Below, piece by piece: positions 5,036-34,520 of a stretch of DNA of 64,000 nt. The notes under the pieces are model-generated. The model had not been told where the DNA came from. It ran no database searches and saw nothing but the letters and a program-made list of their open reading frames with translations. How positions within the stretch are numbered: the first letter of the stretch is position 1; the number at the start of each line of letters is the position of its first letter. A program made the position numbers and the translations under genes. This DNA comes from Deltaproteobacteria bacterium (GTDB taxonomy: Bacteria > Desulfobacterota_D > UBA1144 > Nemesobacterales > UBA2774): positions 62,001 to 126,000 of the forward strand of contig JAVKFU010000019.1 of NCBI GenBank assembly GCA_040223695.1, read 5' to 3'.

Positions 5036-7003
5036 TTAACCTTCCAAGTGTTCGTACTGTTCCTTCAAACCTTTCACGACGGCGGGGTCAGCAAGCGTGG
5101 TCGTATCACCGAGAATAGTCCCTTCGGCAATGTTTCTGAGGAGCCTTCTCATTATCTTGCCGCTTCTCGTTTTCGGCAGCTCGGCGGTGAATATGATTTC
5201 ATCGGGCCTTGCTATCGCGCCGATCTTTTTGGATACGTGTTTTTTCAACTCATCTATCAGCTTTTCGCTATGTTTTACGTTTTCTCTTAATGTTACGAAC
5301 GCCACGATTGCCTGTCCCTTGATTTCATGCGCCCTCCCAATTACGGCCGCTTCTACAACGTGAGGGTGAGCTACATGCGCGCTTTCGACTTCCATAGTGC
5401 TTATCCTGTGCCCGGCGACATTCATAACGTCGTCAACCCTTCCCAGAACCCATATGTATCCGTCCTTGTCCCTCTTCGCCCCGTCTCCAGTAAAATATAT
5501 ACCGGGGAATCTGCTCCAGTACGTATCCACATAGCGCTTCAGGTCTCTGTAAATCGTTCTCAGCATAGAAGGCCAGGGGGTTTTGATAACGAGGTATCCG
5601 GCCCCCTCCTTCACTCTCTTCCCGTTTTCGTCGACTATGTCGGCTTCAATACCGGGAAAGGGCAGGGTCGCGGAGCCCGGTTTTAATTTGGTAATCCCCG
5701 GAAGGGGGGTTATAAGGATAGACCCCGTTTCGGTCTGCCACCAGGTATCCACTATCGGACACTTTTTATTTCCGATGTTGATGTAGTACCACATCCAGGC
5801 TTCGGGATTTATCGGCTCGCCTACGGAGCCGAGAAGGCGGAGAGAGCTCAAATCATGTTTTTTGGGATACTCCTCGCCCCATCTCATAAAAGCCCTGATG
5901 GCAGTGGGTGCGGTGTAAAAAATAGTTACGCCGTACTTTTCGACAATTGCCCAGAACCTTCCGATGTCAGGATAGTCGGGCGCTCCTTCGTACATTATAG
6001 ATGTAGCTCCGTTCGCCAGGGGACCGTAGATTATGTAGCTGTGACCCGTTATCCAGCCTATATCCGCTGTACACCAGTAAGTATCTTCCTCCTTCAGATC
6101 AAACACCAATTTTGTAGTCGCGTATACTCCGGTCAGGTATCCGCCGGTCGTGTGCACTATTCCCTTGGGCTTTCCGGTAGTTCCGCTTGTGTACAGCATG
6201 AAAAGCATATCTTCGCTGTCCATTTTCTCAGGCTCGCAGTAGGCGGGAGCGTCATCCATTAATTCATGCCACCAGTAATCCCTTCCTTTTTTCATCTTTA
6301 TTTTGGCCCTGCTTCCAACCCTCTTTACAACAACGACTTTTCGGACGCTCTTGGTTTTCTTAAGAGCCTCGTCCGCGTTCTTCTTCAGAGGAACTACACC
6401 GCCTCTCCTGTAACCGCCGTCCGAGGCAATAAGGACTTTGGCCTTGGAATCATTGATCCTGTCACTGAGACTCTCGGCGCTGAACCCGCCGAAAACTATG
6501 CTGTGAGGGGCGCCTATCCTGGCGCATGCCAGCATCGCTATTGCAAGCTCGGGGATCATGGGAAGATATATCGTAACACGGTCGCCTTTTTTGACTCCCA
6601 GGCTCTTGAGGACGTTGGCGAATTTGTTTACCTCCCTGTATAGCTCCCGATAGGTAAGTGTGACGCTTTCCCCGGATTCGGCTTCCCAGATTATCGCAGC
6701 CTTGTTCTTTCTCCAGGTATTTAAGTGACGGTCGAGACAGTTGTAGGAAACGTTCAGCTTCCCGCCGATAAACCACTTGGCGTGAGGCGGTTTCCAGCTC
6801 AGCACTTTCCTCCATTTTTTAAACCAGTGGAGCTCCTTGGCAAAATCCTCCCAGAATTTCTCCCCCTGCCGTTTTGCCTTCCTGTATATGGAATCGTCCT
6901 TTACATTCGCCTGCTCCCTGAATTTCTTGCTCGGCAAGAAGGTGCGTCTTTCCTTTAGAAGAGCCTCTATTGTTTTTTCAGTAGTTTTTGTAGTTTTTGC
7001 CAT
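5036..7003 (-). CDS. acs: Acetyl-CoA synthetase (AMP-forming)
   Basis: Activates acetate to acetyl-CoA via acetyl-adenylate in the cytoplasm. The 655-residue protein matches the usual family length. Motifs include [11 protein letters not shown] (about 271-281), [32 protein letters not shown], and near the C-terminus [11 protein letters not shown], with the Lys that is commonly acetylated to switch the enzyme off. ATG 7003 is chosen over the longer frame (start 7048) because GGGGGAA lies at the right spacing. The N-terminus is rich in Lys/Thr. It is monocistronic, with 155 bp to its upstream neighbour. Confidence 0.96.
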
Positions 7004-7203
7004 TCGGTTCCCCCTTCGTATATATTCGGCAACAGTGAGATACTCCAATACTAACTAATATTGCAGGTGATTTGAAGATTATTTAAATGGGGAGCTCTAA
7101 TATCTATCTATCAATAACCGAGAATGTAGGGAAAGGAGACTTAATCTTAAAAAGTTGTTAGAGAAACAACACATTCGACCATTATAATCAAATGTGTGGA
7201 TAT

Positions 7204-8928
7204 CTAATTACCCCTGTCAAAAACGGGCGGGGGCAGAAGCGGTGGTTTTTCCTTTTTTGAAGACTCGCGCTGAAATTCCATCTCCGAGACCACTATGCTC
7301 GGAGCTACGGTCGAGACCGGGACATAGCCTGACTCGGCTCCGCAGAACCCGTTAAACACCGCATAGTCGTCACCGGTGGCAACGATATTGTTTATCGTCA
7401 CAAGAGGGGTCCCGACAATCTCTATATCCCTCACCGGCGTCTCTTCACCGGTTCTGGGGTCAACCTTGTATAAAACCAGTGGTGTCCCTCTAAAGGCCTG
7501 GAAATTATAAGAAGAGGTATTGGTCTCCCCCCCTCTCATGCTTTTAATTATGAGGCCGAAGGGCTTATTCTGACGCTTTACCTCATCTAGGAGCAGCTCC
7601 TTCAATTTCACACGGGACAGCTCCTTGCCGGATTCGATAATCGTGTTGCTCATCCTGGCCATCGGGGGCTGTCCGTATGACGCTCTTCCGTGGCCGTTGG
7701 ACCTCTGAAACCCCTCGACAGGGGTCCTGGATAACAGGAAATTCCTGAGAATCCCCTCTTCCACCAGCACCACCCTCTCTCCGGGAACGCCCTGGTCGTC
7801 AAAGGGGTAATAACCCATCAAATCCACCCCCTCGTAGCTTCTGAGTGTCGGGTCGTCGATGATGGACAGAAAGGCGGGGATTATTTTCTTGCCCACCTTC
7901 TCCTTAAACGTCTGGCCTTCGTCGTCATCGATCTGTCTCTCCCCCTCGAGCCTGTGCCCGACGGCTTCGTGGAATACGACCCCCGCGGCCTCGGGTTCGA
8001 GCAGCGCCGGAACGCTTAGCGGAGGAAGCGCTTCGGCCTTTCTCATTTCCAGGGCCTCCTCGACCATCTCCTTTACCTGATTCTTTATCTCCTCGACCGG
8101 AGGTACATCGTCGGGAGTCACATAGTAAAGATTCCTGTAATTCTCCACTATTCTTCCGTCATCGGCCCTGCTTTTTACCTGAGCGTCCAGGGAGTAGAGA
8201 ATTTCATCCCTTATGTACCGAGTCCCTTCCGAATTCACGAAATAAACCGTTTCTTTCTGCGCAGTTACTACAAGATCTGCATTGAGCAACTCCTTGTAGT
8301 CTTTATAAACGGAGGAGACTTCCCTTACCGCATCCTCCCATTTTTGGGGGTCGAATGACAATGTAAGCTCCGGGCCGTAATAAGCATGGCTTTTTTCCCT
8401 GGAGAAGCTTTTGATATCGTCCTTTTTTACTTCCTGCACTTTTTCCGCTTTTTTATTCAGGTACTGAGAAAGAGCCTCCTTGTAAGCATGGTCCGTAACC
8501 TGCCATAGCGCGGTTCTTATAGCATCAGGGTCGTTATCCAGCGGAACGGACGATGAGTCATGGAACGGCATTCTGCCCCCTGATCTGCCCTTGACAGAGT
8601 TATCGAATTCGTAACTCCCTACGCGCACATCCACGAAAAGCCGCCTGACCCTGCTTTTTTCCGAAGAAATAATCGCCCCGTACTTACCGCGAATATTGTA
8701 ATAGGTATTGTCCTTTATCTGGTAGCTGATGAAGTAGGGGTCTTCGTAACCCTCGAGCCTGAGCTTTTGCTGCGAGCGTTCGAGCTCGTCTCTCATTGCC
8801 CGGAGAACGACCGTGTCGTCTCTTTGAGCTTCCTCCTGTCCCGGCTCAGCGACCGCGGTAAAGGAAAAAATGGGAATCAACAGGAGGAGCAGAGCCATAA
8901 CCCCGGGTAATGGACTTTTGATACACAT
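7204..8928 (-). CDS. Exported TldD-like metalloprotease (family U62)
   Basis: A 574-residue member of the TldD/PmbA (TldE) protease family. The metal-binding motif HEAVGH is at residues 320-325, and the surrounding EAAGVVFHEAVGHRLEGE and the later GRASYGQPPMARMSNT are characteristic of the catalytic TldD subunit. Unlike cytoplasmic TldD it carries an N-terminal signal peptide (hydrophobic MALLLLLIPIFSFTAVA, cleavage near residue 28), and the protein is about 100 residues longer than E. coli TldD. No TldE/PmbA partner is adjacent. Whether it acts as a soluble periplasmic protease or alone is not visible. No strong ribosome binding site precedes the ATG. Confidence 0.87.
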   Translation of the reverse strand: MCIKSPLPGVMALLLLLIPIFSFTAVAEPGQEEAQRDDTVVLRAMRDELERSQQKLRLEGYEDPYFISYQIKDNTYYNIRGKYGAIISSEKSRVRRLFVDVRVGSYEFDNSVKGRSGGRMPFHDSSSVPLDNDPDAIRTALWQVTDHAYKEALSQYLNKKAEKVQEVKKDDIKSFSREKSHAYYGPELTLSFDPQKWEDAVREVSSVYKDYKELLNADLVVTAQKETVYFVNSEGTRYIRDEILYSLDAQVKSRADDGRIVENYRNLYYVTPDDVPPVEEIKNQVKEMVEEALEMRKAEALPPLSVPALLEPEAAGVVFHEAVGHRLEGERQIDDDEGQTFKEKVGKKIIPAFLSIIDDPTLRSYEGVDLMGYYPFDDQGVPGERVVLVEEGILRNFLLSRTPVEGFQRSNGHGRASYGQPPMARMSNTIIESGKELSRVKLKELLLDEVKRQNKPFGLIIKSMRGGETNTSSYNFQAFRGTPLVLYKVDPRTGEETPVRDIEIVGTPLVTINNIVATGDDYAVFNGFCGAESGYVPVSTVAPSIVVSEMEFQRESSKKEKPPLLPPPVFDRGN

Positions 8929-9060
8929 ATATTAAAAAGATTAGCTATGAGATCCATATATGTAAAGGAGAGATAGACAGGCAGAGTAATTAAGACAGAT
9001 AATGGCAGGTTTAGGTTTCAGCCGCCGCAATATTAAATAAAGAGATATGAGGGTGAGACT

Positions 9061-9795
9061 CTAATTTACCCTGGCTCCGGGTTCGTCTAAATTCTCTACA
9101 AGAACGGCAAGAAATTTGTTAAGGGACTCGACCGCTCTTCTATAATTTCTCACTCTGAATCTTAAGTAAGGGGTGAGGAGAGCGGGATGAGATAAAAAAT
9201 ACGGCACGGATTTCCCCCAGTCAAACCTCCCCGAGCTGCCATATATCGCTCCCATATCGGGCAGGCGCTCCCATGATTCGTCCGAGACCGTACGAACGGA
9301 CATTACAGGTGTACTGCTCTGTCGGGCAGCCTCGGCGATTCCCCAGGTTTCCATATCGACTATTATTGCCCCGGTTTTCTCGTAGAGTCGCTTTTTTATT
9401 TCAGGGTCGTTCAGGAATCTGTTCTCGGTAAGAATATCGGCCTTTCTGTAATCGTGTTGCAATTCCGGATATTCGCCGTTCAATTTTATCTTCTCACCTT
9501 TTTTCAAGCTGATTACATTTTCTCCCAGAACGACGTCGCCCACAGACATTTCAGGGCTGAGTCCGCCGCCGAGTCCCGCGCTTATAATAAGCCCGGGCCT
9601 GAGCTTCTGAATCACTGAACTCGATCCCTTCCTCGCCCTCTTTATACCGATTCCCGTCGCCCCAAGAGCTATCCGTTCCCCGGAGAGGTAGCCGATTTTA
9701 TAGTGCAATTCATCTACGATTTTCTCTTCCTCGGTAAGGAATACCCTGCTCAAATGCTCAAGCTCATCCCATGTGGCCGACAGTAGAGCGATCAA
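9061..9795 (-). CDS. Nucleoside phosphorylase/nucleosidase family protein (MTA/SAH or hopanoid-associated type)
   Basis: A 244-residue protein of the purine/uridine phosphorylase superfamily. The frame shows the Gly-rich strand SAGLGGGLSPEMSVGDVVL, the substrate-binding VDMETWGIA, and the catalytic-Asp region VRTVSDES. It could be a 5'-methylthioadenosine/S-adenosylhomocysteine nucleosidase, a futalosine hydrolase-like enzyme, or the phosphorylase that accompanies hopanoid genes; no hopanoid genes are in view. The start is TTG at 9795 with GAGGGG 9 bases upstream. It lies 47 bp downstream of the uvrA-uppP pair on the same strand. Confidence 0.78.
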   Translation of the reverse strand: MIALLSATWDELEHLSRVFLTEEEKIVDELHYKIGYLSGERIALGATGIGIKRARKGSSSVIQKLRPGLIISAGLGGGLSPEMSVGDVVLGENVISLKKGEKIKLNGEYPELQHDYRKADILTENRFLNDPEIKKRLYEKTGAIIVDMETWGIAEAARQSSTPVMSVRTVSDESWERLPDMGAIYGSSGRFDWGKSVPYFLSHPALLTPYLRFRVRNYRRAVESLNKFLAVLVENLDEPGARVN

Positions 9796-9842
9796 ATTAT
9801 ATGGCCCCTCTTTCCCTGAAAAACAAATACAGGTCCGTTTCT

Positions 9843-10649
9843 CTAGTTTCTGCCCAGGTACATGAACACAATCAGGGCGGCGAGTATCAGACGGTATATC
9901 ACGAACACAGTGTAGCTTTCCCTTCTAACGAACCTCAAAAGATACTTGATTGCGAAAAATGCAAACACGGCGGATGCTATGATTCCGGCAATGAACGGCG
10001 CGCTCATTACGGAAGAGTACTCCAAGTGTCTGGATTCGAAGACGCCCGCACCCGCTATGAGCGGAGCCGCCATGAGGAAGGAAAATTTGGCTGCTTCGTC
10101 CCTCTTGAAATCTCTTAACATGGCCCCCGTGATCGTTATCCCCGATCTGGAAACCCCGGGTATAATGGCAAATGCCTGAGCGACGCCGATAACGAGACAG
10201 TCCGTTATATTCATCTCAATTATTGATTTGCGCCGGGCCGAGAACCTGTCGGAAAAATAAAGCAGCAAACCGAAAAACGACAATGAGAAGGCTATATACA
10301 GGGGATGTCTCAGAAGCCCCGCCGCCTGCTCCTCGAACAGGAACCCGAACACCGCCCCGGGTACGGTAGCTATAATGATATACATTCCTATCTTTCCGCC
10401 CGGACGTCCCTCAAAGCTCCTTTCCATAACCCCTTTCAGGAACTCGCTTATAATCAGCATCCAGTCCCGCCAGAAATAAAAGATAATTGCAATCAGGCTC
10501 CCTACGTGGAGGGCGACATTAAAAGGAAGCCCCTGATCCCGCCAGGAGAAGAACCAGGGCAGGAGAACCAGGTGCGCTGTGCTGCTGATGGGGAAGAATT
10601 CCGTAATTCCCTGTATCGCGCCCAGAATTATCGACTGTATGAGGTCCAA
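9843..10649 (-). CDS. uppP: Undecaprenyl-diphosphatase
   Basis: Dephosphorylates undecaprenyl diphosphate to recycle the lipid carrier for peptidoglycan and other surface glycans; an integral membrane enzyme with its active site facing the periplasm. The 268-residue protein has both BacA/UppP motifs: the N-terminal EFFPISSTAHL and the central PGVSRSGIT, within about eight membrane segments. The start is TTG one base after the uvrA stop codon, with AAGAAGGGA as a likely ribosome binding site inside the end of uvrA, so translation is probably coupled. Confidence 0.94.
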   Translation of the reverse strand: MDLIQSIILGAIQGITEFFPISSTAHLVLLPWFFSWRDQGLPFNVALHVGSLIAIIFYFWRDWMLIISEFLKGVMERSFEGRPGGKIGMYIIIATVPGAVFGFLFEEQAAGLLRHPLYIAFSLSFFGLLLYFSDRFSARRKSIIEMNITDCLVIGVAQAFAIIPGVSRSGITITGAMLRDFKRDEAAKFSFLMAAPLIAGAGVFESRHLEYSSVMSAPFIAGIIASAVFAFFAIKYLLRFVRRESYTVFVIYRLILAALIVFMYLGRN

Positions 10650-10650
10650 T

Positions 10651-13482
10651 TTAATTTATTCCCTTCTTCCGGCGTTTCCCGTTTTTAAGGACATGTTTCA
10701 AGAACGTTGCCGTATGGGATCCCCTCGTCTGCGAGATTTTTTCAGGTGTCCCGTGCTCAACGATGTATCCGCCGTTCTCGCCCCCTTCGGGTCCCATATC
10801 GATCACATAATCGGCGCATTTTATCACATCGAGATTATGCTCAATAACGATTACGGTGTTTCCCGTATCAGTGAGCTGCTGAAGCACGTGAATAAGCTTC
10901 TTTACATCGTCGAAATGAAGCCCGATGGTAGGCTCGTCGAGGATGTATAGCGTTCTCCCGGTCGAACGCCTGGAGAGCTCTTTTGAAAGCTTTATTCGCT
11001 GCGCCTCGCCCCCCGAAAGTGTTGTCGCCGGCTGGCCGAGCCTTATGTACTCGAGCCCCACCGCCTCAAGGACATCCAGTCTGGATTTGACCTGAGGGAT
11101 GTTTTTAAAAAAACCGGCCGCTTCCCTTACCGTCATATCAAGTACGTCTGCGATACTCTTGCCGTTGTATTTGACCTCAAGGGTCTCCGAATTATACCTG
11201 CTTCCCCCGCATCTTTCGCACGTAACATATACATCCGGAAGAAAGTGCATCTCTATCTTCACCGTCCCGTGTCCGAGGCAGACGCTGCACCTCCCTTCCT
11301 TTACGTTGAAGCTGAATCTCCCCGGTTTGTATCCCCGCATATTGGCCTGTGGGAGCATTGCGAAAAGGTCCCTGATCGGCGTAAAAAGGCCGGTGTATGT
11401 CGCGGGATTGGACCTCGGCGTCCTTCCTATAGGGGTCTGCTCCACATTTACGACCTTATCGATCTCTCCGTCGCCGGACAGCATTTCATGCTTTCCGACC
11501 CTTTCCTTGCTCCTGTAGAGCTTCCGGCTTAGCGCGTTATACAAGGTATCGATCACGAGGGTGCTTTTCCCCGAACCCGATACACCCGTGACGCATGTAA
11601 AAACTCCGATCGGAAAGGAAACGTCAATGTCCTTCAAATTATGCTCGGAGGCCCCTTTTATTTCTATGAACCCCCTGGGCTCCCTTCTTACTTTGGGGAC
11701 AGGTATCGTGAAATTTCCAGTGAGATAATTGGCGGTCAGGGATTCACCGTGTCTTATCAGCTCCTTTAAATCCCCTTCGGCTACGATCCTCCCGCCTTTT
11801 TCACCCGCTCCGGGACCTATATCCACAATAAAATCGGCGTTTCTTATCGTATCTTCGTCATGCTCGACAACGATTACCGTATTTCCGCTGTCTCTCAGGG
11901 ATTTGAGCGTGGATATGAGCCTTTTATTGTCCCGGGAGTGAAGCCCGATAGTCGGCTCATCAAGTACGTAGGTAATACCCGTAAGTTTCGATCCGACCTG
12001 AGTCGCGAGTCTTATCCTCTGCGCTTCGCCGCCCGACAGAGTCGGGGCGGAACGGTCAAGGGTAAGATAACCGAGCCCCACGTCCGTCAAAAAAGTCAAA
12101 CGCGAGTCGATCTCTTTTAGTATTCTCTCTCCAATCTGAAATTCCCTCGGGGTGAACTTCAAGCCCTTAAAGAATTCGAGACTCACAGCCGCTGACATCG
12201 TAGCCACATCGTGTATCGACTTGCCGTCAATAAGTATGGAAAGGGCCTCTGTTCTGAGCCTCGACCCTTTGCACACCGGACACTCTACAGTCCTCATAAA
12301 CTGCGAAAGCTTCTCGCGGACGGGAGCGGATTCGGTTTCCTGATACCACTCCCTGACTATGCCTACAACTCCCTTATAGGTATCCCGGTACTTAAGCACC
12401 CTGCCCCGTCTCTCCCTGTAAAATATGATCTCCTCGTCACCCGAGCCGTTTATAATCGTTTTCCTGGCCTTGGGGGGAAGTTTGCCGAAAGGAACGGTCA
12501 TGCTGATGCCGTAATACTCGGCTACGTTTTCTATAAGCCGCTTGAAGTAACTGGAGTTTCTCCATGGTATTATCGCCCCGTCTTCGATGGAAAGCTCATC
12601 GTCGATCAGGAGCTCCGGATCGCAAAACCAGATTTCTCCGATCCCGTGACACTCGGGGCATGATCCATAAGGGCTGTTGAAAGAAAAGAGCCTCGGGGAT
12701 ATCTCGGGATAGCTCATGCCGCACCCGGGACAGGCGAATTTGTCGCTAAGCGTGAGAACCTCCCCTTTTTCCGTCTCTACCCTGACAATCCCGCCCGAGC
12801 GCTTAAGCGCGATTTGGAGTGAATCTCCTACCCTGTCCTGAACGTTTTCAGGGCGGATGACGATAACGTCCACCAGGAGCTCTATCGTATGTTTTTTCTG
12901 CCTGCCGAGTTTTATTTCGTCATCGAGATCATGGACCCTTCCGTCTATTCTGACCCTTAGAAAACCCTCCCTCCTCAGCTCATCCAGCTCCTTTCTGTAC
13001 TCGCCCTTTCTTCCCTGCACTATGGGGGAGTAAATCGTTACCTTCTCGCCCGCTCCGAGACCCGTGACGCGCTCGACCATTTTATCGAGGCTCTGCGCCG
13101 TTATCTCCAAACCGCATTTGTGACAGTAGGGCTTGCCGAGCCTGGCGTAGAGGAGTCTCATGAAATCATAGATCTCCGTTATTGTGCCCACGGTAGAGCG
13201 CGGGTTCCTCTGAAAAGTCTTCTGATCGACGGAGATCGACGGAGAAAGCCCTTCGATCGAATCCACGTCCGGCTTATCTATCTTCTCGACGAACTGCCTC
13301 GCATAGGCGGAAAGGGATTCCATGTACCTCCGCTGCCCCTCGGCAAAAAGGGTATCGAAGGCGAGGGAAGACTTCCCCGAGCCGCTTACACCGGTTATTA
13401 CAACTAATTTTCTTCTGGGAAGGCTCAAGGAGACGTCTTTAAGATTGTGCTCCCTTGCTCCCGTGATTTTAATTGAATCCAA
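10651..13482 (-). CDS. uvrA: Excinuclease ABC subunit A
   Basis: Damage-recognition ATPase of nucleotide excision repair, 943 residues, normal length. It has two ABC modules: Walker [17 protein letters not shown] near the N-terminus and [16 protein letters not shown] in the second half, signatures LSGGEAQRI twice, and Walker [15 protein letters not shown] and [14 protein letters not shown]. Zinc-finger cysteines are visible at CHKCG, CPGC/CPEC and CSVC/CERC. Start is TTG 13482, exactly at the family N-terminus ([17 protein letters not shown]), without a clear ribosome binding site. Followed directly by uppP. Confidence 0.97.
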
Positions 13483-24736: not shown

Positions 24737-25789
24737 TCAGTCCTTAAAATATGGGATGATGTCTTTGGCGTAGGTTTTAAGGGCCTTCTCCGGGTCGGGG
24801 CTGAACCTGTAGAAGAGCACGAAATGCCTGACTCCCTTCTTTATATATTTCTCGATCTTGTTTATACAGTCCTTTTTGGAACCCGTTATAGTGAAGTCGA
24901 TTATGGCCTCCCTCGGGAAGAACTGCCCCAGCTGTCTGAACTTCTGCCTGCCCTCCTCATCCTGAGGGACGACGTTGAAATAGTTAAGACCGTGATACTC
25001 CTCGGGGATTTCGACATCGTACCCCGCTTTTTTGAGCTGGTCCTGCATGACTAGCACGTACTTAAACGGCTCAAGCGTTTTGTAGGCCTCGTCCTCATCT
25101 TTACCGAGCGATGTGAAGACCCAGAGAGCGGGGTCAATTTCCTTCATTTTTCTTCCCGCGGACTTTGCGCTTTCCTTGATTGTTCCCAGATATTCGGCAT
25201 AAAGACCGGGATTCAAGTCGATGGGGAGCCAGCCGTCCCCGAGCTCTCCCGCAAGCTTCAGACCTTTGGGCGTATGAGTCGCTATATAGGTTGGAATCCT
25301 GTTCCTCTTGTAAGGCCTCACCTGAAGGAAAGCGTCCTTCATCTCGAAAAACTCACCCTTGTAATCGATCGGACTGTCCGAGGCCCACAGTTTCTGCATA
25401 ATCTCCATCGATTCCCTCAGTCTCTTAAGGGGCTTGTTCCATTTAATGCCGTAAGCGTCGAGATTCATCGACTCGCCGACGCCTAATGTCAGTGTGACTC
25501 TGCCCTTCGATATGTGGTCGATGGAAGCGAGTCTCTGAGCAAACACCGCAGGGTGCATTCTGTGCGGGTCAGAGACGGTGCCGAGACTGATATTACTGGT
25601 CTTCATCGCAGCCGCGGTAGCTATTGTCCATGCTTCGTGTGCTTCTGTGGGGGAGACGAAAACAAGGTGGTCGGGATACCAGACGGTATCGAATCCAAGT
25701 TTGTCCGCCATAACCGAAAATTTTAAAAGTCCATCCATATCAGCCCCGGGCATGGGGGCCGAAAGTCCGAATTTAATCTCATTTGCCAT
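24737..25789 (-). CDS. Luciferase-like (LLM) F420- or flavin-dependent oxidoreductase
   Basis: A 350-residue TIM-barrel protein of the bacterial luciferase-like superfamily. Typical segments are KFGLSAPMPGADMDGL, ADKLGFDTVWYPDHLVF, SLGTVSDPHRMHPAVFAQRLASIDHIS and GRVTLTLGVGESMNL, the last two most like F420-dependent dehydrogenases and Mer-type proteins. No signal peptide. ATG has GAGGTG 6 bases upstream. A VOC-gene relic lies directly downstream. Cofactor (F420 versus FMN) is inferred from resemblance and from the F420 reductase-like gene nearby. Confidence 0.88.
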   Translation of the reverse strand: MANEIKFGLSAPMPGADMDGLLKFSVMADKLGFDTVWYPDHLVFVSPTEAHEAWTIATAAAMKTSNISLGTVSDPHRMHPAVFAQRLASIDHISKGRVTLTLGVGESMNLDAYGIKWNKPLKRLRESMEIMQKLWASDSPIDYKGEFFEMKDAFLQVRPYKRNRIPTYIATHTPKGLKLAGELGDGWLPIDLNPGLYAEYLGTIKESAKSAGRKMKEIDPALWVFTSLGKDEDEAYKTLEPFKYVLVMQDQLKKAGYDVEIPEEYHGLNYFNVVPQDEEGRQKFRQLGQFFPREAIIDFTITGSKKDCINKIEKYIKKGVRHFVLFYRFSPDPEKALKTYAKDIIPYFKD

Positions 25790-25953
25790 TCTTACACCTC
25801 GCTATTAATTGTAGTTTCATTATAAACGGAATAGCGGACAAAACACAATATAATAAGCGCAAATAAGCGGCAGACGGTTCGCTAGTGGTTCTATAGTCCA
25901 TAGAAACCAGATGTTATAATAAGCACAGACAGCAAAAAGAAGGAGGAAAATAA

Positions 25954-26976
25954 ATGAAATTCGGTATCGGACTGTTCGGCATGCAGAGCCATGAGGAGCT
26001 TCCCTACACTCATCCGGAGCTATACAAAAACGCGCTCGAGCAGGTGAAGCTGGCTGAAGATGTGAATTTCGACTCCGCGTGGATCTCGGAGCACCATTTC
26101 CTCGAAGACGGTTACTGTCCGTCGCCCGCAGTAATTGCGGCAGCTATGGCAGCTATGACTGGAAGGATAAAGATCGGCTCCGCGGGAATTATCCTACCAC
26201 TGCACAATCCGGTGAGGGTGGCGGAGGATGCCGCCGTGGTCGATAATATTTCAGGCGGAAGGTTTAATCTCGGCGTGGTGCTCGGATACAGAAAAGAGGA
26301 ATACGAGGGGATGGGAGTGCCGATGAAGCAAAGACCCTCGAGGATGGACGAGGGGATAGAGGTGCTGGAGAAGGCGCTTGCGGGAGAAAAATTCTCCTAC
26401 GAAGGCGAAAGGTATAAACTGGAGAATACCGTGGTCACACCGAAGCCGGTACAAAAGCCGATACCCCTTTACGTGGGGGCTTTCGAGGAGCCCGCGATCA
26501 GGCGCGCGGGCAGGTACGGATACCCGCTCCTGATAGGCCCCGGGAGAACAGTGGATATGGTAAGGGATACGCTCGGCTACTACAACGATGAGGCGAAGAA
26601 GGCGGGGAAAAACCCGGACGACGTGGAGCACATACTCCTTAGAGAAACATTCGTATCCGCGGACAGGGACCGGGCCATAGAAGGCGGGAACAAGTACATA
26701 ATAAGCATGTATAAGTATTACTTCTCGCTCGGAGTGAAGATGTTCGTAAGGGGTAAGCAGCTTACCGGACTGGACGATCCGCTTTTCGAGCACCTTGCGG
26801 AGCAAAGGTTTATAATCGGGACGCCTGAAGACTGCATCGATGAAATAAAGATGTACCGGGACACGCTCGGAATCAATTATATAGCCTGCAGAATGGTGTT
26901 CCCTCAGGCTACTCACGAAGTTATCTCAAACTGTATTGAGCTATTCGGAAAAGAGGTAATCCCTAATATTGACTGA
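25954..26976 (+). CDS. LLM class flavin-dependent oxidoreductase
   Basis: A 340-residue luciferase-like monooxygenase. It opens MKFGIGLFGMQSHEELPY and has FDSAWISEHHFLEDGYCPSPAV, HNPVRVAEDAAVVDNISGGR and NLGVVLGYRKEEYEGMG, typical of flavin-dependent (FMN) members close to the alkanal monooxygenase alpha-like group. It is a paralog of the gene at 55283-56308, sharing EHHFLEDGYCPS and VRVAEDAAVVD. AAGGAGG precedes the ATG. Transcribed divergently from the gene at 24737-25789. Substrate unknown. Confidence 0.9.
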   Translation: MKFGIGLFGMQSHEELPYTHPELYKNALEQVKLAEDVNFDSAWISEHHFLEDGYCPSPAVIAAAMAAMTGRIKIGSAGIILPLHNPVRVAEDAAVVDNISGGRFNLGVVLGYRKEEYEGMGVPMKQRPSRMDEGIEVLEKALAGEKFSYEGERYKLENTVVTPKPVQKPIPLYVGAFEEPAIRRAGRYGYPLLIGPGRTVDMVRDTLGYYNDEAKKAGKNPDDVEHILLRETFVSADRDRAIEGGNKYIISMYKYYFSLGVKMFVRGKQLTGLDDPLFEHLAEQRFIIGTPEDCIDEIKMYRDTLGINYIACRMVFPQATHEVISNCIELFGKEVIPNID

Positions 26977-27100
26977 GGCAATATTCAGGAACCACTTGTT
27001 TTATAGCACCGCCAGAAAGAAATGACGGGCGGCGACTTGAATCCTGAGAATTGAGACGTTATGATGTATGTGTTGTTTATAAGGTTCTTTTAAAATTTAT

Positions 27101-27271
27101 AGTGGTAAGGAGCTTTCAGCTTAATAGGGAAATCCGGTGAGAATCCGGTACAGCCCGCTCGCTGCTGTAAGTAGTCCGTAAAGTCCCCCGCAGAATGCCA
27201 CTGGAATCAAAGATTCCGGGAAGGCGCCGGGGAGTCCCGAGGCTACAAGTCAGAACACCTGCCTTACAACT
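27101..27271 (+). promoter_or_regulatory. Cobalamin (B12) riboswitch
   Basis: Adenosylcobalamin-type riboswitch in the leader of btuB. The closing stem pairs GTAAGG (27105-27110) with CCTTAC (27262-27267). Inside are GGGAAATCCGGTGAGAATCC (27127-27146), the central GCCACTG at 27197-27203, and the B12 box near AGTCAGAACACCTGCC (27248-27263). It should switch off expression of the downstream uptake operon when cobalamin is plentiful. Confidence 0.95.
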
Positions 27272-27328
27272 GTGAAATTACTTTTCTTCGGGGGGAGAAA
27301 GTAAATGGTTTTAAGATACAAACAGTCT

Positions 27329-27353
27329 CCCGGTTTCAGTACGAAGAACCGGG
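27329..27353 (+). promoter_or_regulatory. Hairpin that can hide the btuB ribosome binding site
   Basis: A 7-bp stem, CCCGGTT (27329-27335) and AACCGGG (27347-27353), whose right arm overlaps the GGGGG ribosome binding site (27351-27355) of btuB (GTG at 27361). It is placed where an expression platform acting on translation would be. No T-run follows, so transcription termination is less likely. Confidence 0.55.
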
Positions 27354-27360
27354 GGCTCAA

Positions 27361-29241
27361 GTGATAAAGCATTTCCTGTCAGCATTTCTTGTTCTAACAA
27401 CTTTTCAGGCAATAGCCCAGGAGAGCGGGGTGGAAACCCTTGAGACAATAGTCGTCGAGGATGCTCCCATAGAGCCTCCTCTAAACTACCCGTCCGCTTT
27501 TTCGACCGTCATAGAGCTTGAGGATTTTAAGGGCGAATACAATACCGCCTCCGATATACTCTCATTCTCGCCGGGGGTGGTCGTAAGAGATTTCGGCGGA
27601 TTCGGGCAGCTCAAAACCCTGTCCATCAGGGGCTCGTCCAACGACCAGGTAGTGATTCTGCTGGACGGCGTGAGGCTCAATAATCCCATCGGCGGCGGAG
27701 TAGATCTTTCGACGATCCCGGTTCACTATGTGGACAGATTCGAGATCGTGAGGGGCGGGGCGTCCGCGCTTGCGGGAAGCGACGCGATAGGCGGCGTCGT
27801 AAACATCGTAACAAAAGAAACCGACGAGCCGTTTACATTCGGCTCCGCCACGTACGGCTCGTACGAGACATTCGAATTGAATTTATCAAGGGCCCAGAAA
27901 ATCGGGGATTTCAGCTATCTGGTGTCATTTACGCACGCGCAGAGCGAGGGTGATTTCAAATTCAAATCCGTAAACGACCTCACACTCAAAAGGATAAACA
28001 ACGAGTTCCACTCCGAAAGTTTTCTGGGGAAAGTCAACTACGACCCGGGGAACGGCTGGGAGATAGGGCTTCTCAACGAATTCTTCTACGACGACAGGGG
28101 GGTGCCGGGTCTAGGGGAGTTTCAGCAGCCGAATTCAAGCCAGAAAGATTTGAGAAACCTGACCAGCCTGAACATATCAAAAGATGGCTTTATAAAACCT
28201 GAACTGGACCTCAACATAATACTGTTCAACAGGTTCGACTATCTGAAATTTACCAACCCGACCCCTACGGTAGGCGTGCCCATAGATACTCTGAGCGAGA
28301 CCTACTCGTTCGGTATAAACCCGCGGCTCACGTGGTTCGCTCCCTATAATCAGATAGTGACATTCGCGACGGAGGCGAGGGGGGATATTTTGAGGGACGA
28401 GGATTTCGACAACCCGAAGCGGTTTACGTACAGCGTGTTTGCGGGCGACGAGATAAGCTTGTGGGACGAAAAGGTGCTCATAAATCCGGTGATCCGTTAT
28501 GACCTGTGGACAACAAGGGAGGACGAGACGACTACCGATTCTGGATTCTCCCCCAAGCTCGGCGTAATTGTTTCACCGTTTAATTACCTGTCATTCAAGG
28601 GAAACGTAGGCCGGTCGTTCAGGGCCCCGAGCTTCGGGGAGCTCTTCTTCCCGGAAGAGGGATTCATAGGGGGGAACCCCGACCTCAAACCGGAGACATC
28701 CTACGACTTCGATATAGGATTCGTACTGTCACACCCCCGCGCCGCGCTCGAATTCAACTATTTCAGAAACCACATTAACGATCTTATCGCATTCGTATTC
28801 ATAAGCGCCCTCAGGATCGAGCCGAGGAATATAGGGGATGTGGTCGAGCAGGGCATTGAAACGAGTCTCGTATTGAGACCGTTTGATTTCCTGGAGCTAT
28901 TCGCCGGTTACACGTTTCTCGACGGCGAGGTGGAAGAAACGGGGGCGCAGCTTCCGGGAAGACCGAGAAACAAGTTCGACCTGAGAGCCGTCCTTACGTA
29001 CAACCTGCTCACGCTGTTCTGGGAGACTCATTACGTGGACAGCATACCGCTGAGCGCCTTCCCAAACTCCAAAACGACAGACCCCCGGACGACTTACGAC
29101 ATAGGGGCGAAGGCGGAATGGAAAAAACTGTTCGTAACGTTCGAGATAAAGAACCTGACCGACAATCTGGACGTAAGGGACGCGCTCGATTTCCCGCTTC
29201 CCGGCAGGACATATTTCGCCACGGCAGGAATAAATTTTTAG
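27361..29241 (+). CDS. btuB: TonB-dependent vitamin B12 receptor
   Basis: Outer-membrane TonB-dependent receptor, 626 residues, close to E. coli BtuB in length. A signal peptide (to about residue 19, ending AIAQ) is followed by a TonB box-like ETIVVED, the plug domain (SDILSFSPGVVVRDFGG, VVILLDGVRLNNP, VDRFEIVRGGASALAGSDAIGGVVNI) and a 22-strand-type barrel ending with FATAGINF, a terminal Phe as needed for barrel assembly. Substrate assignment rests on the cobalamin riboswitch upstream and the btuF-btuD-btuC genes downstream. Start is GTG with GGGGG 5 bases before. Confidence 0.93.
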   Translation: MIKHFLSAFLVLTTFQAIAQESGVETLETIVVEDAPIEPPLNYPSAFSTVIELEDFKGEYNTASDILSFSPGVVVRDFGGFGQLKTLSIRGSSNDQVVILLDGVRLNNPIGGGVDLSTIPVHYVDRFEIVRGGASALAGSDAIGGVVNIVTKETDEPFTFGSATYGSYETFELNLSRAQKIGDFSYLVSFTHAQSEGDFKFKSVNDLTLKRINNEFHSESFLGKVNYDPGNGWEIGLLNEFFYDDRGVPGLGEFQQPNSSQKDLRNLTSLNISKDGFIKPELDLNIILFNRFDYLKFTNPTPTVGVPIDTLSETYSFGINPRLTWFAPYNQIVTFATEARGDILRDEDFDNPKRFTYSVFAGDEISLWDEKVLINPVIRYDLWTTREDETTTDSGFSPKLGVIVSPFNYLSFKGNVGRSFRAPSFGELFFPEEGFIGGNPDLKPETSYDFDIGFVLSHPRAALEFNYFRNHINDLIAFVFISALRIEPRNIGDVVEQGIETSLVLRPFDFLELFAGYTFLDGEVEETGAQLPGRPRNKFDLRAVLTYNLLTLFWETHYVDSIPLSAFPNSKTTDPRTTYDIGAKAEWKKLFVTFEIKNLTDNLDVRDALDFPLPGRTYFATAGINF

Positions 29242-29286
29242 CGGACAAAACATTAAAAAAGATATATCAACAAGGAGGTATTGTTT

Positions 29287-30783
29287 ATGAAATTACTAGT
29301 ATCCATGTTTTTATTGGCCGTATCGGCATTAGCCCTTAGCGGATGCGATGAGACAGGCGGAGGCGGAGGCGGTTTTATACCGACGGGCAGCATTCTGGCG
29401 GTTGCGGAGAAAGCGGGGTCCGAGGAAACAATAAAAGTAGGCGGCCTTCAGGGCGCGGTGCCTCCGGGAAGCACTGTGGAGGTTACGAATCTCGATACGG
29501 GGAAGACGAAGACCACAACAGGGGCGCCAGACGGGAGCTTCGACCCCACATTTATCGGTGACACCGATGACACATTCAATGTGCTGGTAACGAATAACGG
29601 AAATATAGTGGAAGATACGGTAATAGGGGTCACTCTGCTTTCGGATGCGGTTGAGGAAAACCTTGCCAATCTCGGGAGCGTTCCTGCGGATATTGAGATA
29701 CGCGGAGACAGGGCATATGTGATAAATGGGTTTTCCAATAATATACAGGTCTTTGATTTAGATCAGGATCCCCCTGGACTTATAGGGACTATTGTTCTTC
29801 CACCCGGCTCAAATCCCACAGATATGGCATTTCTCGACAATACGCGTGCCTACGTCGCGAATAATATCGGTCAGAGCGTAGCCGTCGTAAACGTCCAGAC
29901 CAGGGTTTGTGAAACCCTTATTGTAAGAGCCGGACAAGGGGGAGACACACAGCCTTGCCAGGAAGTCCTCACGGTTGCGGGAACACCCTTTGAAGACCCG
30001 GCAGGGGTTGCTGTAGCGAACGGGAAGGTCTATGTATCGAACAATAATCTGGCAGGCTTTTCCGATCCAAACGGCAACGGCTTTATATCCGTGATTAACG
30101 CTGAGACCAACCAGTTTATTACAACGATAGAGGCTACAGGCGCGAACAGCACCAGCATGATAGTGTTTGACGGGAATATCTTCGTAGTCAATGCAGGTAA
30201 CATTACATCCACACCGGATTTCTCGGAATTCTTCTGTGATGAAGAATTTCCTCCGTCGATCGACGTAATCGACCCGCAAACAGATATTATAATCGATACG
30301 ATTCCTATTCCATTGAGCGCTGAAAACGCGTTAGTCTGTCTGCCTAACGCTATAGCAGCGACAGGCGACGGGTTCGGTTACACGGGACTGGGACTGGTAG
30401 GGGCTTTATTAAAGGTTGATCTCCTGACCGGCGATGTAATAAACGGTACGGACAATCCTATTATAATTACGGGTCTATCCGGATTGAATAACACAGCGGA
30501 TGTAGCAATCAGGGGAAACCTGCTGTTTACGACCCTGTTTAATTCCGACCAAATCGCGGTTGTCGATACCGACACGGATGAGGTTGACCCGTTTCCGTAT
30601 ATAGCTCCTTTTCCGGCGGGCATAAGGGCTTTTAATCCCGGCTCTCAACTCTTTGACGGCGTACAGTCGCTCGCTATAAGACCCGGCGCGCCGGGGGTCG
30701 ATTTCAACGGGGCCGACATATATTTTATTACGGGGATAAGCGAGCAGCTGGGGTCTGTGGATTCCACTCTGGGAACTCAGTGA
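29287..30783 (+). CDS. Lipoprotein beta-propeller (YVTN type) in the B12 operon
   Basis: A 498-residue lipoprotein. Signal MKLLVSMFLLAVSALALSGC has a textbook lipobox, followed by a Gly-rich linker. Residues 30-120 form a small beta domain (VPPGSTVEVTNLDTGKTK). The rest holds about seven YVTN-like repeats, e.g. RAYVINGFSNNIQVFDLD, RAYVANNIGQSVAVVNV, KVYVSNNNLAGF, NIFVVNAGNI, LLFTTLFNSDQIAVVDTD, so a surface or periplasmic propeller. ATG 29287 is preferred because AGGAGG is 8 bases away. It lies 45 bp after btuB and before the binding proteins, within the riboswitch-controlled run, so it may help capture or hand on cobalamin. That role is inference. Confidence 0.8.
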   Translation: MKLLVSMFLLAVSALALSGCDETGGGGGGFIPTGSILAVAEKAGSEETIKVGGLQGAVPPGSTVEVTNLDTGKTKTTTGAPDGSFDPTFIGDTDDTFNVLVTNNGNIVEDTVIGVTLLSDAVEENLANLGSVPADIEIRGDRAYVINGFSNNIQVFDLDQDPPGLIGTIVLPPGSNPTDMAFLDNTRAYVANNIGQSVAVVNVQTRVCETLIVRAGQGGDTQPCQEVLTVAGTPFEDPAGVAVANGKVYVSNNNLAGFSDPNGNGFISVINAETNQFITTIEATGANSTSMIVFDGNIFVVNAGNITSTPDFSEFFCDEEFPPSIDVIDPQTDIIIDTIPIPLSAENALVCLPNAIAATGDGFGYTGLGLVGALLKVDLLTGDVINGTDNPIIITGLSGLNNTADVAIRGNLLFTTLFNSDQIAVVDTDTDEVDPFPYIAPFPAGIRAFNPGSQLFDGVQSLAIRPGAPGVDFNGADIYFITGISEQLGSVDSTLGTQ

Positions 30784-30828
30784 TCTCACAGTTTGCATAT
30801 ACATATAAAGTCGATAATGATAATTACA

Positions 30829-30860
30829 GGGAAGAGGCGCGTCGATTGCCCCCTCTTCCC
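30829..30860 (+). other. Hairpin in the leader of the first btuF-like gene
   Basis: A 9-bp inverted repeat, GGGAAGAGG (30829-30837) and CCTCTTCCC (30852-30860), with a 14-base loop, between the propeller gene and the next gene of the B12 operon. No T-run follows it, so it more likely stabilises or processes the mRNA than terminates it. Confidence 0.45.
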
Positions 30861-30886
30861 CAAATTATCAACGGAGGCAAATGACA

Positions 30887-31834
30887 ATGCGCATATGTTC
30901 ATTCCTTCCCAGCACTACCGAGATAGTCTATGAGCTCGGGCTCGGGGACAAAATCACAGGCGTCACGCACGAATGCGATTATCCTCCCGAGGCCCGGGAC
31001 AAGAAAAGGGTGATTATGAGCTTCATAGACCCTGAAAAACTGTCGAGCAGGGAAATAGACGAGCTTGTCTCAACGAACGCCCGGGAGGGAAAGAGCACAT
31101 ATCTCATAGACAAAGACGCGCTCGTGGAAGCCGACCCCGATATAATCCTGACTCAGGAGCTATGCGAGGTGTGCGCGGTTTCGGGAAACGAGGTGACAGA
31201 GGCGGCAGAAGCTCTGGGGCACGAACCCGAGATTATAACCCTTGAGCCGAAAACCCTGAGCGAGATTCTGGACACTATTCTCATAATAGGAGAGGCTACC
31301 GGCACTATTGACACCGCGCGGGAAATTACAGACAGGCTTCGACAGAGAATAGAGAAGATCCGGTCACTCCTGAGCGGCGAAAGGGACCGTCCCAGGGTAT
31401 TCTGCCTCGAATGGCTCGACCCTCCTTATGTCGCGGGACACTGGGTGCCCGAGATGGTGGAGACCGCGGGGGGAGAGTGCGGGATAGGCAGGCCGGGCGA
31501 GCCCTCGTTCAAGGTATCATGGAAGGATATCGTGAATTTCGCCCCGCAGATGCTGTTCATCATGCCGTGCGGCTACGATATAGAAAAAACGCTAGATGAA
31601 ATCGACACACTGACCTCGCACGAGGAGTGGTTCTCGCTGCCGTCCACCAACAAGGGGCAGATATACCTTTTCGACGCAAACTCTTACTTCAGCAGGCCCG
31701 GACCGAGGATAGTGGACGGCCTTGAAATACTGGCCAAGACAATCCACCCCGAGCTGATGAAGGGCTACGATCCTCCGACCGACTCGGTTCTCAATTTAAG
31801 GAACTATATGCAGTTCGAACTGTTTCTCGGATAA
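30887..31834 (+). CDS. Cobalamin-binding protein (BtuF-like) without signal peptide
   Basis: A 315-residue protein of the BtuF/FecB-type periplasmic-binding fold. It starts MRICSFLPSTTEIVYELGLG, directly in the first strand of the fold, with no signal peptide, and has THECDYPPEARD and LTQELCEVCAVSG, hallmarks of a widespread cobalamin-binding subfamily. Exported BtuF relatives carry leaders, so this one may stay in the cytoplasm. ATG 30887 is 9 bases from GGAGG; ATG 30881 is only 3 bases away, so 30887 is chosen. A second, exported BtuF-like gene follows 3 bp later. Confidence 0.85.
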   Translation: MRICSFLPSTTEIVYELGLGDKITGVTHECDYPPEARDKKRVIMSFIDPEKLSSREIDELVSTNAREGKSTYLIDKDALVEADPDIILTQELCEVCAVSGNEVTEAAEALGHEPEIITLEPKTLSEILDTILIIGEATGTIDTAREITDRLRQRIEKIRSLLSGERDRPRVFCLEWLDPPYVAGHWVPEMVETAGGECGIGRPGEPSFKVSWKDIVNFAPQMLFIMPCGYDIEKTLDEIDTLTSHEEWFSLPSTNKGQIYLFDANSYFSRPGPRIVDGLEILAKTIHPELMKGYDPPTDSVLNLRNYMQFELFLG

Positions 31835-31837
31835 AAA

Positions 31838-32719
31838 ATGAACAGAAGAATTTTAACGATATTATTAACTTTATTAATGCTGTTTTCTACGGGACTCAAC
31901 GCGCGCCCGGACGACACGCCTGAAAGAATCGTCTCTCTTTCCCCGAACCTGACCCATATAATTTACGCCCTCGGAGAGCTCGATAAAGTGGTAGGCGTCA
32001 CCATCTATTCGGATTTCCCTCCCGAGGCGTACAAATTACCCAAGGTCGGGGGGTGGGTGAATCCCAGCTTCGAGGCCATAGTAGCGCTCAAACCCGATCT
32101 CGTCATGCTCATGAGGGATCAGGACACTATATTCGGAAAAAAAATCAGGGACCTGGGACTTAAAACGCTCGTTACGGACAGCAATAATTCGGTTGACGAT
32201 ATACTGAAAACGATTACAAATTTAGGCGGCGTACTCGGTAAAGAGGAGAAGGCGGCGAGTGTGACCTCCGACATCGAAACCAGACTGAACGAAATAGGGA
32301 ATAACACCCGGAACCTGCCGAGGAAGAGTATTTTGTTAGTAGTGGGAAGGAATCCGGGAACACTTGAAGACATATACGTTATCGGAAGAAATAACTATAT
32401 TAATGAGCTGATCGAGCTTGCGGGGGGGGAGAATGTAGTACAGAACACGAGGCTATCAATAAAAATCACAAAAGAGGCGATACTGACGTTCGACCCCGAT
32501 GTGATAATCGAAATCAATCACGAACAACTGGACAGGGAAAAGGAAATACTGGACACCTGGAGCGAGCTGAGGCAGTCAAGAGCCGTACAAAACGGTCAGG
32601 TTTATATACTCCCCAGCACCGTGCTCCTTCATCCGAGCCAGACTATCGTTCAGGGCGCAGAGGTTCTGACCCGGATACTTCATCCAGAAACAGTGGAAAA
32701 ATATGGCAACAATAATTGA
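31838..32719 (+). CDS. btuF: Periplasmic cobalamin ABC transporter binding protein
   Basis: A 293-residue solute-binding protein with a clear signal peptide (MNRRILTILLTLLMLFSTGLNA). The mature part begins ERIVSLSPNLTHIIYALGELDKVVGVT and has PKVGGWVNPSFEAIVALKPDLVM, the BtuF/FhuD-like fold. It would bind B12 delivered by BtuB in the periplasm and dock on BtuCD. It overlaps btuD by 17 bp. Symbol based on fold plus operon; ferric siderophore binding is excluded only by context. Confidence 0.88.
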   Translation: MNRRILTILLTLLMLFSTGLNARPDDTPERIVSLSPNLTHIIYALGELDKVVGVTIYSDFPPEAYKLPKVGGWVNPSFEAIVALKPDLVMLMRDQDTIFGKKIRDLGLKTLVTDSNNSVDDILKTITNLGGVLGKEEKAASVTSDIETRLNEIGNNTRNLPRKSILLVVGRNPGTLEDIYVIGRNNYINELIELAGGENVVQNTRLSIKITKEAILTFDPDVIIEINHEQLDREKEILDTWSELRQSRAVQNGQVYILPSTVLLHPSQTIVQGAEVLTRILHPETVEKYGNNN

Positions 32720-33476
32720 ATGCGAGGAACTCGGCTTTTCATACGACGGTTCCGAGGTCCTGAGCGACATAAACCTGTCGTTTGGCGAAGGGAAGATGCT
32801 CGGTATTCTGGGGGCGAACGGGGCGGGGAAATCAACCCTGCTCAAGCTCCTTTCGGGAATATTGAAGCCAGGGAAGGGTAACGTCCTATTTAAAGATAAA
32901 CCGTTACGGAACCTTGACCGGAGGGAGATTGCAAAGAGAATCGCATATATACCGCAGGACCCCGTATTCGCGTTCCCCTTCACCGTCATGGAGATGATAC
33001 TGATGGGGAGAGCCCCCTACATAGGCCGCTTCGATTTCGAGAGGGAGGCCGACAGGGAAATCGCGGAAGCCGCGCTGAAGAAGGTCGGAATCAATCATCT
33101 GAAAAACCGCCTGATTACGGAGATTTCCTCGGGGGAGAGACAGCTCGCCTCAATAGGACGCGCGCTCGTCCAGGAGCCCGAGGTAATGATGCTCGACGAG
33201 CCCGCCACCTTCCTGGATATAAAACACCGAAACGAAATAATGAAAATCCTGAGGAGGCTCAAGGATGAAAACAATATCCTCATTGTAGCGGCGACTCACG
33301 ATATCTTCAGCGCCTTATTTTACTTCGACGAAATAATAATGATAAAAGACGGCAGGCTGTTTACGCAGGGGCAGACAGCGGAGGTAGTCAGTCAGGAGAA
33401 CCTCAGCTCTCTCTACGGAACCCGGGTATCGGTAAGGAAGGACGGGGGGAAGGTCTTCGTCTATCCGAGCGACTGA
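32703..33476 (+). CDS. btuD: Cobalamin ABC transporter ATP-binding protein
   Basis: A 257-residue FecE/BtuD-type ATPase. Walker A GANGAGKSTLLKLLSG (about residues 38-53), Q-loop YIPQDPVFAFPFTVMEMILMGR, signature SSGERQLASIGRAL, Walker B VMMLDEPATFLDI and the switch His in ATHDIFSA are all present. It overlaps the binding-protein gene and precedes the permease. Together with the neighbours it forms the inner-membrane B12 importer. Confidence 0.92.
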   Translation: MATIIECEELGFSYDGSEVLSDINLSFGEGKMLGILGANGAGKSTLLKLLSGILKPGKGNVLFKDKPLRNLDRREIAKRIAYIPQDPVFAFPFTVMEMILMGRAPYIGRFDFEREADREIAEAALKKVGINHLKNRLITEISSGERQLASIGRALVQEPEVMMLDEPATFLDIKHRNEIMKILRRLKDENNILIVAATHDIFSALFYFDEIIMIKDGRLFTQGQTAEVVSQENLSSLYGTRVSVRKDGGKVFVYPSD

Positions 33477-33518
33477 TCGCTCAGCCGGAATACAAATCAT
33501 ATTTTTTATCCTACGACA

Positions 33519-34520
33519 ATGAGCACAAAGAAGAAATTTATTATTTCGATCTCTCTGTTACTGATACTCTGGGCCTTGATATCACTTGTAAGCATATTTA
33601 CGGGCACGTACGGGATGCTGACCCCCGGCGAGATAATGGGCGGAGACGAGCTGGTCAGTACGATTTTTTTCAAGATCAGGGTTCCCAGGGTTTTAATGGC
33701 TTCTGTCGCGGGCGGAACCCTGGCAATCACCGGGGCCGCGCTCCAGGCGTTATTCAGAAACCCTCTGGCCTCCCCTTTCACGCTCGGAATATCGGGAGGG
33801 GCTTCTCTGGGGGCCCTTATAGCTATCAGATTGGGACTGGCAGCGGGCGTGCTGGGGTTCTCGATGGTCTCGATTATGGCCTTTCTGTTTTCATTACTGA
33901 CGATGATATTCGTATATTCGATATCTAAGGTCGGGGGAGTAATAGCTACGGGAAGACTTCTTCTTGCCGGGGTTGTAATGAACTTCCTTTACTCCGCGTT
34001 CGTGCTCTTTATTCAGTTCTTCTCCAGTTTTACGGAGTCGCTTCAGACTATGCGCTGGATTATGGGGAGTCTGGATATAGTGGGTTTCGATGACGTCTGG
34101 AAAACGCTGATATTCGTAGTGCCCGGAGTCATTATTCTACTGTCGATAACAAAGGATATGAATCTGTTCGGGCTTGGGGACGATGTGGCATCGTCCCTCG
34201 GCGTGAATGTAAAGAGGATGGAAAAATTAATCTACTTCGCGACCTCACTTGCCGCAAGCGCCGTAATCTCCGTAACGGGGCCTATAGGGTTCGTGGGATT
34301 AATCATTCCTCATATACTCAGGATGATTCTGGGAGTGGATAACAGGATTATTCTTCCGTGCTCATTCCTGCTGGGGGCCTCTTTTCTCACGGCCGCCGAC
34401 ACGGTGTCCAGAACCCTGATTTCCCCGGTAGAGATACCCGTGGGAATTATCACGGCGTCTGTAGGGGGGTTGTTCTTTCTTTGGCTCCTGATCAGAACCA
34501 AAAAAGAAGTGATAGTTTAA
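33519..34520 (+). CDS. btuC: Cobalamin ABC transporter permease
   Basis: A 333-residue FecCD/BtuC-type permease with about ten membrane helices. Family blocks are RVPRVLMASVAGGTLAITGAALQALFRNPLASP, here as RVPRVLMASVAGG and ALFRNPLASPFTLGISGG, and the C-terminal GPIGFVGLIIPHILRM, which contacts the ATPase. The start ATG lacks a good ribosome binding site, but it sits 42 bp after btuD. It ends the operon; hairpins follow at 34553-34592. Confidence 0.92.
   Translation: MSTKKKFIISISLLLILWALISLVSIFTGTYGMLTPGEIMGGDELVSTIFFKIRVPRVLMASVAGGTLAITGAALQALFRNPLASPFTLGISGGASLGALIAIRLGLAAGVLGFSMVSIMAFLFSLLTMIFVYSISKVGGVIATGRLLLAGVVMNFLYSAFVLFIQFFSSFTESLQTMRWIMGSLDIVGFDDVWKTLIFVVPGVIILLSITKDMNLFGLGDDVASSLGVNVKRMEKLIYFATSLAASAVISVTGPIGFVGLIIPHILRMILGVDNRIILPCSFLLGASFLTAADTVSRTLISPVEIPVGIITASVGGLFFLWLLIRTKKEVIV

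Follow-up and report, generated by a model that had tools for sequence, protein, structure and literature searches.

Does the surface capture of vitamin B12 by a propeller lipoprotein of the BtuG type belong to one phylum, or does it occur elsewhere? BtuG, a very tight binder of B12, has been reported as exclusive to Bacteroidetes (PMC6143338), transporters capped by a lipoprotein as seemingly exclusive to the same group (PMC10404256), and BtuG2 as absent from other users of BtuB (PMC12751083). One of these three papers also argues that BtuG originated by competition in the gut. The question is raised by a stretch of 64,000 nucleotides (the window) from an uncultured bacterium, in which a gene for a seven-repeat propeller lipoprotein directly follows btuB behind a cobalamin riboswitch. 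A sequence-only reading of this DNA had suggested that the protein captures B12 by analogy to BtuG, although the lineage is not one of Bacteroidetes. Named records assign the DNA to Candidatus Dadabacteria. We found no published description of a BtuG-like protein in Dadabacteria, and literature searches on Dadabacteria with cobalamin, on YncE with BtuB, and on cobalamin riboswitches with YVTN proteins returned nothing on point.

The riboswitch operon and the cobamide supply of the organism

The operon occupies positions 27091-34520 of the plus strand as a single unit, which comprises a riboswitch, btuB, the lipoprotein gene, btuF1, btuF2, btuD and btuC. All six genes are on the plus strand, and their order is the one first read from the letters; the riboswitch operon stands as proposed, except that its start moves from 27101 to 27091, where the aptamer begins. 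The aptamer (RF00174, 27091-27280, plus strand) is matched by cmscan over the full model, 1-189, with 98.5 bits against a cut-off of 31.5 (E 2.2e-23). It is the only copy in the whole 3.03 Mb genome, and all relatives with contigs that extend far enough have a riboswitch upstream of btuB. Two divergent genes for luciferase-like monooxygenases precede the operon (24737-26976), and they lie upstream of it in nearly all relatives too.

Just before the GTG start of btuB, a hairpin on the plus strand (27328-27354, fold z -2.55) places its 3' arm over the G-rich ribosome-binding site. Since this site could be covered by the hairpin, translational control is suggested, and the hairpin is likely to be the off-switch of the riboswitch, as judged from sequence and folding. 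The gap between btuB and the lipoprotein gene is 45 bp, contains a ribosome-binding site, and shows no terminator-like site. A second plus-strand hairpin, lacking a U-run, lies between the lipoprotein gene and btuF1 (30818-30871, fold z -2.84). Most relatives have hairpins in this gap too, and the present one may set the ratio of the outer-membrane to the downstream products. A lipoprotein gene with its own promoter and terminator would have spoken against a shared function, and no such arrangement was seen: the riboswitch is upstream of both genes, no terminator lies 5' of the lipoprotein gene, and its 3' hairpin has no U-run. The lipoprotein gene as a transcription unit of its own was rejected.

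The transporter gene (27361-29241, plus strand, GTG start) encodes a TonB-dependent protein of 626 aa with PF00593 and PF07715. Its top NCBIfam match is the TonB-B12 model TIGR01779 (1.4e-51), whose equivalog cut-off it misses at 175.8 vs 599.7 bits, and its closest PDB match is E. coli BtuB (1.3e-32). We call it BtuB-like because of the operon, the riboswitch and this best PDB match.

Two BtuF-like proteins had been read in the operon, and both match PF01497. The product of btuF2 (31838-32719, plus strand) carries a signal peptide and is a BtuF-like periplasmic binding protein (PF01497 1.1e-38; BtuF model NF002894 7.2e-29, under the cut-off). The product of btuF1 (30881-31834, plus strand; PF01497 2.3e-18) bears a conserved C-x2-C motif, with THEC and LC-x-VCAVS invariant; 11 orthologues start at MRICSFLPS or a few residues earlier, and all 11 lack a signal peptide. 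It is therefore unlikely to serve as another binding protein of the periplasm; a simple duplication of BtuF was rejected for the same reason. From its sequence, it is probably a cytosolic protein with a putative role in cobamide handling. The operon is completed by a BtuD-like ABC ATPase (32703-33476, plus strand, PF00005 1.4e-33), overlapping btuF2 by 17 bp, and a BtuC-like permease (33519-34520, plus strand, PF01032 8.1e-85), whose top NCBIfam matches are BtuC models. BtuB, BtuF2, BtuC and BtuD thus have counterparts in the BtuB-BtuFCD system of E. coli, for which we know of no operon of this form with a propeller or a signal-less second BtuF-like protein.

What would such an operon serve? 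No CobS was found in the genome or in any of the 15 relatives of its family. The genome encodes B12-binding-domain proteins of 1235 aa, the size of methionine synthase (MetH), and 714 aa, the size of methylmalonyl-CoA mutase. Since CobS is missing and these proteins are present, the organism most likely obtains its cobamides by import.

The lipoprotein and its relation to BtuG and YncE

The lipoprotein (29287-30783, plus strand, 498 aa) has a lipobox, LSGC, with the lipidated Cys20 invariant in 19 aligned sequences. A Gly-rich linker comes next, then a beta-sandwich at residues 35-117, and residues 122-491 form a propeller of seven blades. The AlphaFold2 model (pLDDT 88.2, pTM 0.85) contains the sandwich and seven blades, in agreement with the seven repeats first counted. 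A domain search gave no match to DUF4465. Four further cysteines are invariant, and the pairs 208/224 and 317/351 are likely disulfides. The precursor has a charge of -45, and relative to its length the protein exceeds in acidity the other window proteins with which it was compared. Invariant loop residues, counted at the level of faces, gather on one side of the propeller (26 of 132 vs 2 of 56 on the other, p 0.0005), where 15 residues are acidic and 1 is basic. Traced through the Asn54-Thr64 loop, this conserved face appears to be the one that holds the ligand in BtuG.

The closest known proteins are BtuG1, BtuG2 and BtuG3 of Bacteroides thetaiotaomicron (PDB 8BLW, 8BMX-8BN0, 8OKV; PMC6143338, PMC10404256). 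They share with the Dadabacteria protein the lipoprotein nature, the seven blades, the immediate proximity of the gene to btuB in a locus controlled by a cobalamin riboswitch, and a strong acidity (published as -18 for BtuG2, vs -45 here for the precursor); they are also its nearest solved structures by sequence. When the lipoprotein was searched with phmmer against 177,635 PDB sequences, only 3 chains matched, all with the BtuG1 propeller (E 1e-3), among them 8BLW, which is BtuB1G1, and 8PTD, which is BtuG1. An order-level profile again placed BtuG1 first (3.6e-8); B. uniformis BtuG, BtuG2 and BtuG3 came after it, separated by few other entries, and hhalign against BtuG1 gave 95.6%. The best Pfam match is DUF5074, the family of BtuG1; the lipoprotein scores 17.9 bits, under the gathering score of 27.2, while the BtuG1 propeller reaches 32.8 and a bridging relative (L093) 37.3.

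The link to BtuG is firm because of intermediate relatives. Pairwise BLASTP connects the lipoprotein to a smaller relative from Neomarinimicrobiota (1e-21), whose AlphaFold2 model is also a seven-bladed propeller. In a fold search of this model against the PDB, 16 of the 17 top matches were BtuG (E 8e-21 to 7e-17; TM about 0.8, rmsd 2.7-3.8), the other one being an archaeal YVTN protein (1l0q), and the remainder falls to 1e-12. A pan-phylum profile of 30 propellers aligned with BtuG1 without a break (1.2e-28). With this profile, an archaeal YVTN S-layer protein exceeded BtuG in total score, through repeated out-of-register matches.

Comparison with E. coli YncE, which we take to be a seven-bladed YVTN propeller encoded beside the TonB-dependent PQQ transporter YncD/PqqU, leads to a different reading, in which the lipoprotein faces the periplasm and acts with BtuB from the inner side, as a scaffold or a delivery step to BtuF. 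Of the bacterial periplasmic propellers, YncE gives the best superposition with the AlphaFold2 model of the lipoprotein (TMt 0.79, vs 0.61-0.66 for BtuG), and the fold search with this model matches propellers of all kinds and does not single out BtuG; the model is less informative, probably because of inserts that blur the comparison. The YncE family PF21783 is matched weakly by 14 of the 30 pan-phylum propellers and by 2 of 19 orthologues (best 0.0018). The lipoprotein itself has no match to it at E 0.01, and the whole genome none at E 1e-5. The lipidated cysteine is followed by Asp at +2 (C-D-E-T-G), with an acidic +2 residue in most orthologues. Such an Asp retains lipoproteins in the inner membrane of E. 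coli, a rule that may not hold in Dadabacteria. Against a periplasmic role, YncE is absent from the PDB sequence matches of both the lipoprotein and its order profile, and the pan-phylum profile reaches it at 1.5e-9 vs 1.2e-28 for BtuG1. YncE resembles the model in superposition, but its sequence relation is far weaker and it has no tie to a cobalamin riboswitch. We regard the periplasm-facing reading as unlikely.

Where the earlier proposal spoke of analogy to BtuG, homology is the better word: from sequence comparison, the lipoprotein appears to be a distant BtuG homologue, recognisable only through profiles and intermediate sequences. Filing it as BtuG proper was rejected, on the DUF5074 cut-off and on the export signal of Bacteroidetes, which is MKWD after the cysteine in BtuG2. 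That signal is described as specific to the phylum, and so its absence bears on the filing and not on the function. The Dadabacteria protein, from another phylum, also differs from BtuG in its additional N-terminal sandwich and its two invariant cysteine pairs.

Linkage within the order and relatives in other phyla

Is the arrangement a chance one? Across 20 homologous loci from the order, the sequence riboswitch, btuB, lipoprotein, btuF1 is kept wherever the contig reaches. This type of BtuB occurs in 21 genomes, and the lipoprotein gene comes next in 19 of the 19 in which the contig continues (in G006 and G030 it stops inside btuB). In some relatives btuF2-btuD-btuC lie elsewhere, having been relocated in G032 and G034 to a separate operon with its own riboswitch, while the lipoprotein gene stays with btuB, and btuF1 remains beside the pair. 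Such order and linkage, kept across the whole order, argue that the operon arrangement is not chance. One locus (L048) has two cobalamin riboswitches, at 4772-4962 before btuB-lipoprotein-btuF1 and at 9797-9988 before btuF2-btuD-btuC. A natural experiment is provided by G026 (locus L133, G026:C81, 2126-6271), which keeps the riboswitch and btuF1 and has the transporter replaced by one that is 26% identical. At this locus the lipoprotein gene is absent, with no relic seen, and its loss where the transporter was replaced connects the lipoprotein with the particular transporter that it accompanies.

Beyond the order, relatives at 26-30% identity, with 28-29% in the search of named records, lie directly after BtuB-like transporters in named MAGs of Ignavibacteriota (placed in Bacteroidota by some taxonomies), Neomarinimicrobiota and Zixibacteria, two of these loci being behind a riboswitch. 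When 387 genomes were surveyed with a profile, 68 genomes outside the order had matches, and in 53 of the 68 a cobalamin riboswitch precedes the propeller on the same strand by at most 7 kb, an enrichment that is partly built in, the survey profile having already held five relatives from riboswitch loci. As a control of small number, none of 5 generic propellers of the YncE family (PF21783) in 20 of the survey genomes was near such a riboswitch, which also speaks against the periplasm-facing reading. Claims on phyla rest only on named records, and some survey genomes may be Bacteroidota.

These linkages bear on the idea that the lipoprotein is a hitchhiker, an unrelated gene of YVTN or S-layer type in the operon. 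YVTN propellers are common, and the fold search alone does not discriminate between them; however, the strict linkage to btuB across the order, the joint loss with the TonB-dependent transporter, and the riboswitch linkage in the distant genomes make it very improbable. A surface-exposed lipoprotein with another ligand, such as a B12 carrier from a host or the community, or a ligand-free structural gate of BtuB, would fit the large additional beta-sandwich and loops; BtuG, whose contacts to B12 are Trp194, Trp272, Tyr316 and Tyr335 in BtuG2, and the lipoprotein were compared at the level of propeller faces. Set against such a non-cobamide role are the strong link to cobalamin riboswitches across phyla and the relation to BtuG, and we judge it quite improbable.

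The relatives vary in their termini: some are lipoproteins, and others have dockerin-like repeats or a type IX sorting tail at the end. Three proteins without a lipobox (L073, 2664-3956; L094, 9480-10868; L127, 5424-6722) have a type IX sorting tail at the C-terminus. Such tails are a signal for the cell surface and fit an exposed position; these relatives should be extracellular, contrary to a place in the periplasm. Two loci (L094 in G193, 5422-10868; L132 in G174, 5385-9977) each have a single BtuB-like transporter with a different propeller on either side, which suggests more than one capture protein per transporter. Two loci of the Neomarinimicrobiota type (L070, 2740-6794; L093, 2101-6186) have two tandem BtuB-like transporters and then one propeller.

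A probable BtuG-like lid and its meaning

Taken with the linkage to btuB, the sequence relation and the bridging relatives in riboswitch and BtuB loci, the earlier proposal of a BtuG-like capture factor gains support. We consider it likely that the lipoprotein is distantly homologous to BtuG and that, as a lid, it catches cobamides at the surface and hands them to the BtuB-like transporter, within an uptake operon that is repressed by B12 in an organism unable to make cobamides. The N-terminal lipid would anchor the protein in the outer membrane, facing outwards, and cobamides would be caught on the acidic, conserved face of the propeller; the strong negative charge of BtuG2 is likewise held to attract cobalamin. 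The ligand would then pass to the adjacent transporter for import driven by TonB, and BtuF2-BtuD-BtuC would complete the uptake. We call the protein BtuG-like, since its mode of action is probably that of BtuG, and we infer its B12 (cobamide) binding, surface exposure, lid action and complex with BtuB.

In a wider sense, we lean towards the view that BtuG-type lids were not invented by Bacteroidetes and are widespread, probably old partners of BtuB-type transporters, attached by lipid or by type IX sorting, in Thermodesulfobacteriota (Dadabacteria), Fidelibacterota (Neomarinimicrobiota), Zixibacteria, Ignavibacteriota and others, which would carry lipoprotein-capped TonB transport beyond Bacteroidetes. 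Additional B12-binding envelope proteins in B12 loci are also known from the DUF4465 binders (BtuJ), reported in 2026 from eight clades, with 40% of one cluster near PF16819 (DUF5074) propellers (PMC13398666). They are beta-jelly-rolls, unlike the Dadabacteria lipoprotein, which is a different protein. That work hints at general B12 scavenging, and BtuG-like propellers would extend the point to the lid itself. If true, a BtuG-like partner in uncultured Dadabacteria and other phyla would shift the origin of BtuG away from the gut, and would account for the ability of environmental microbes that depend on cobamides to scavenge B12 where it is very dilute.
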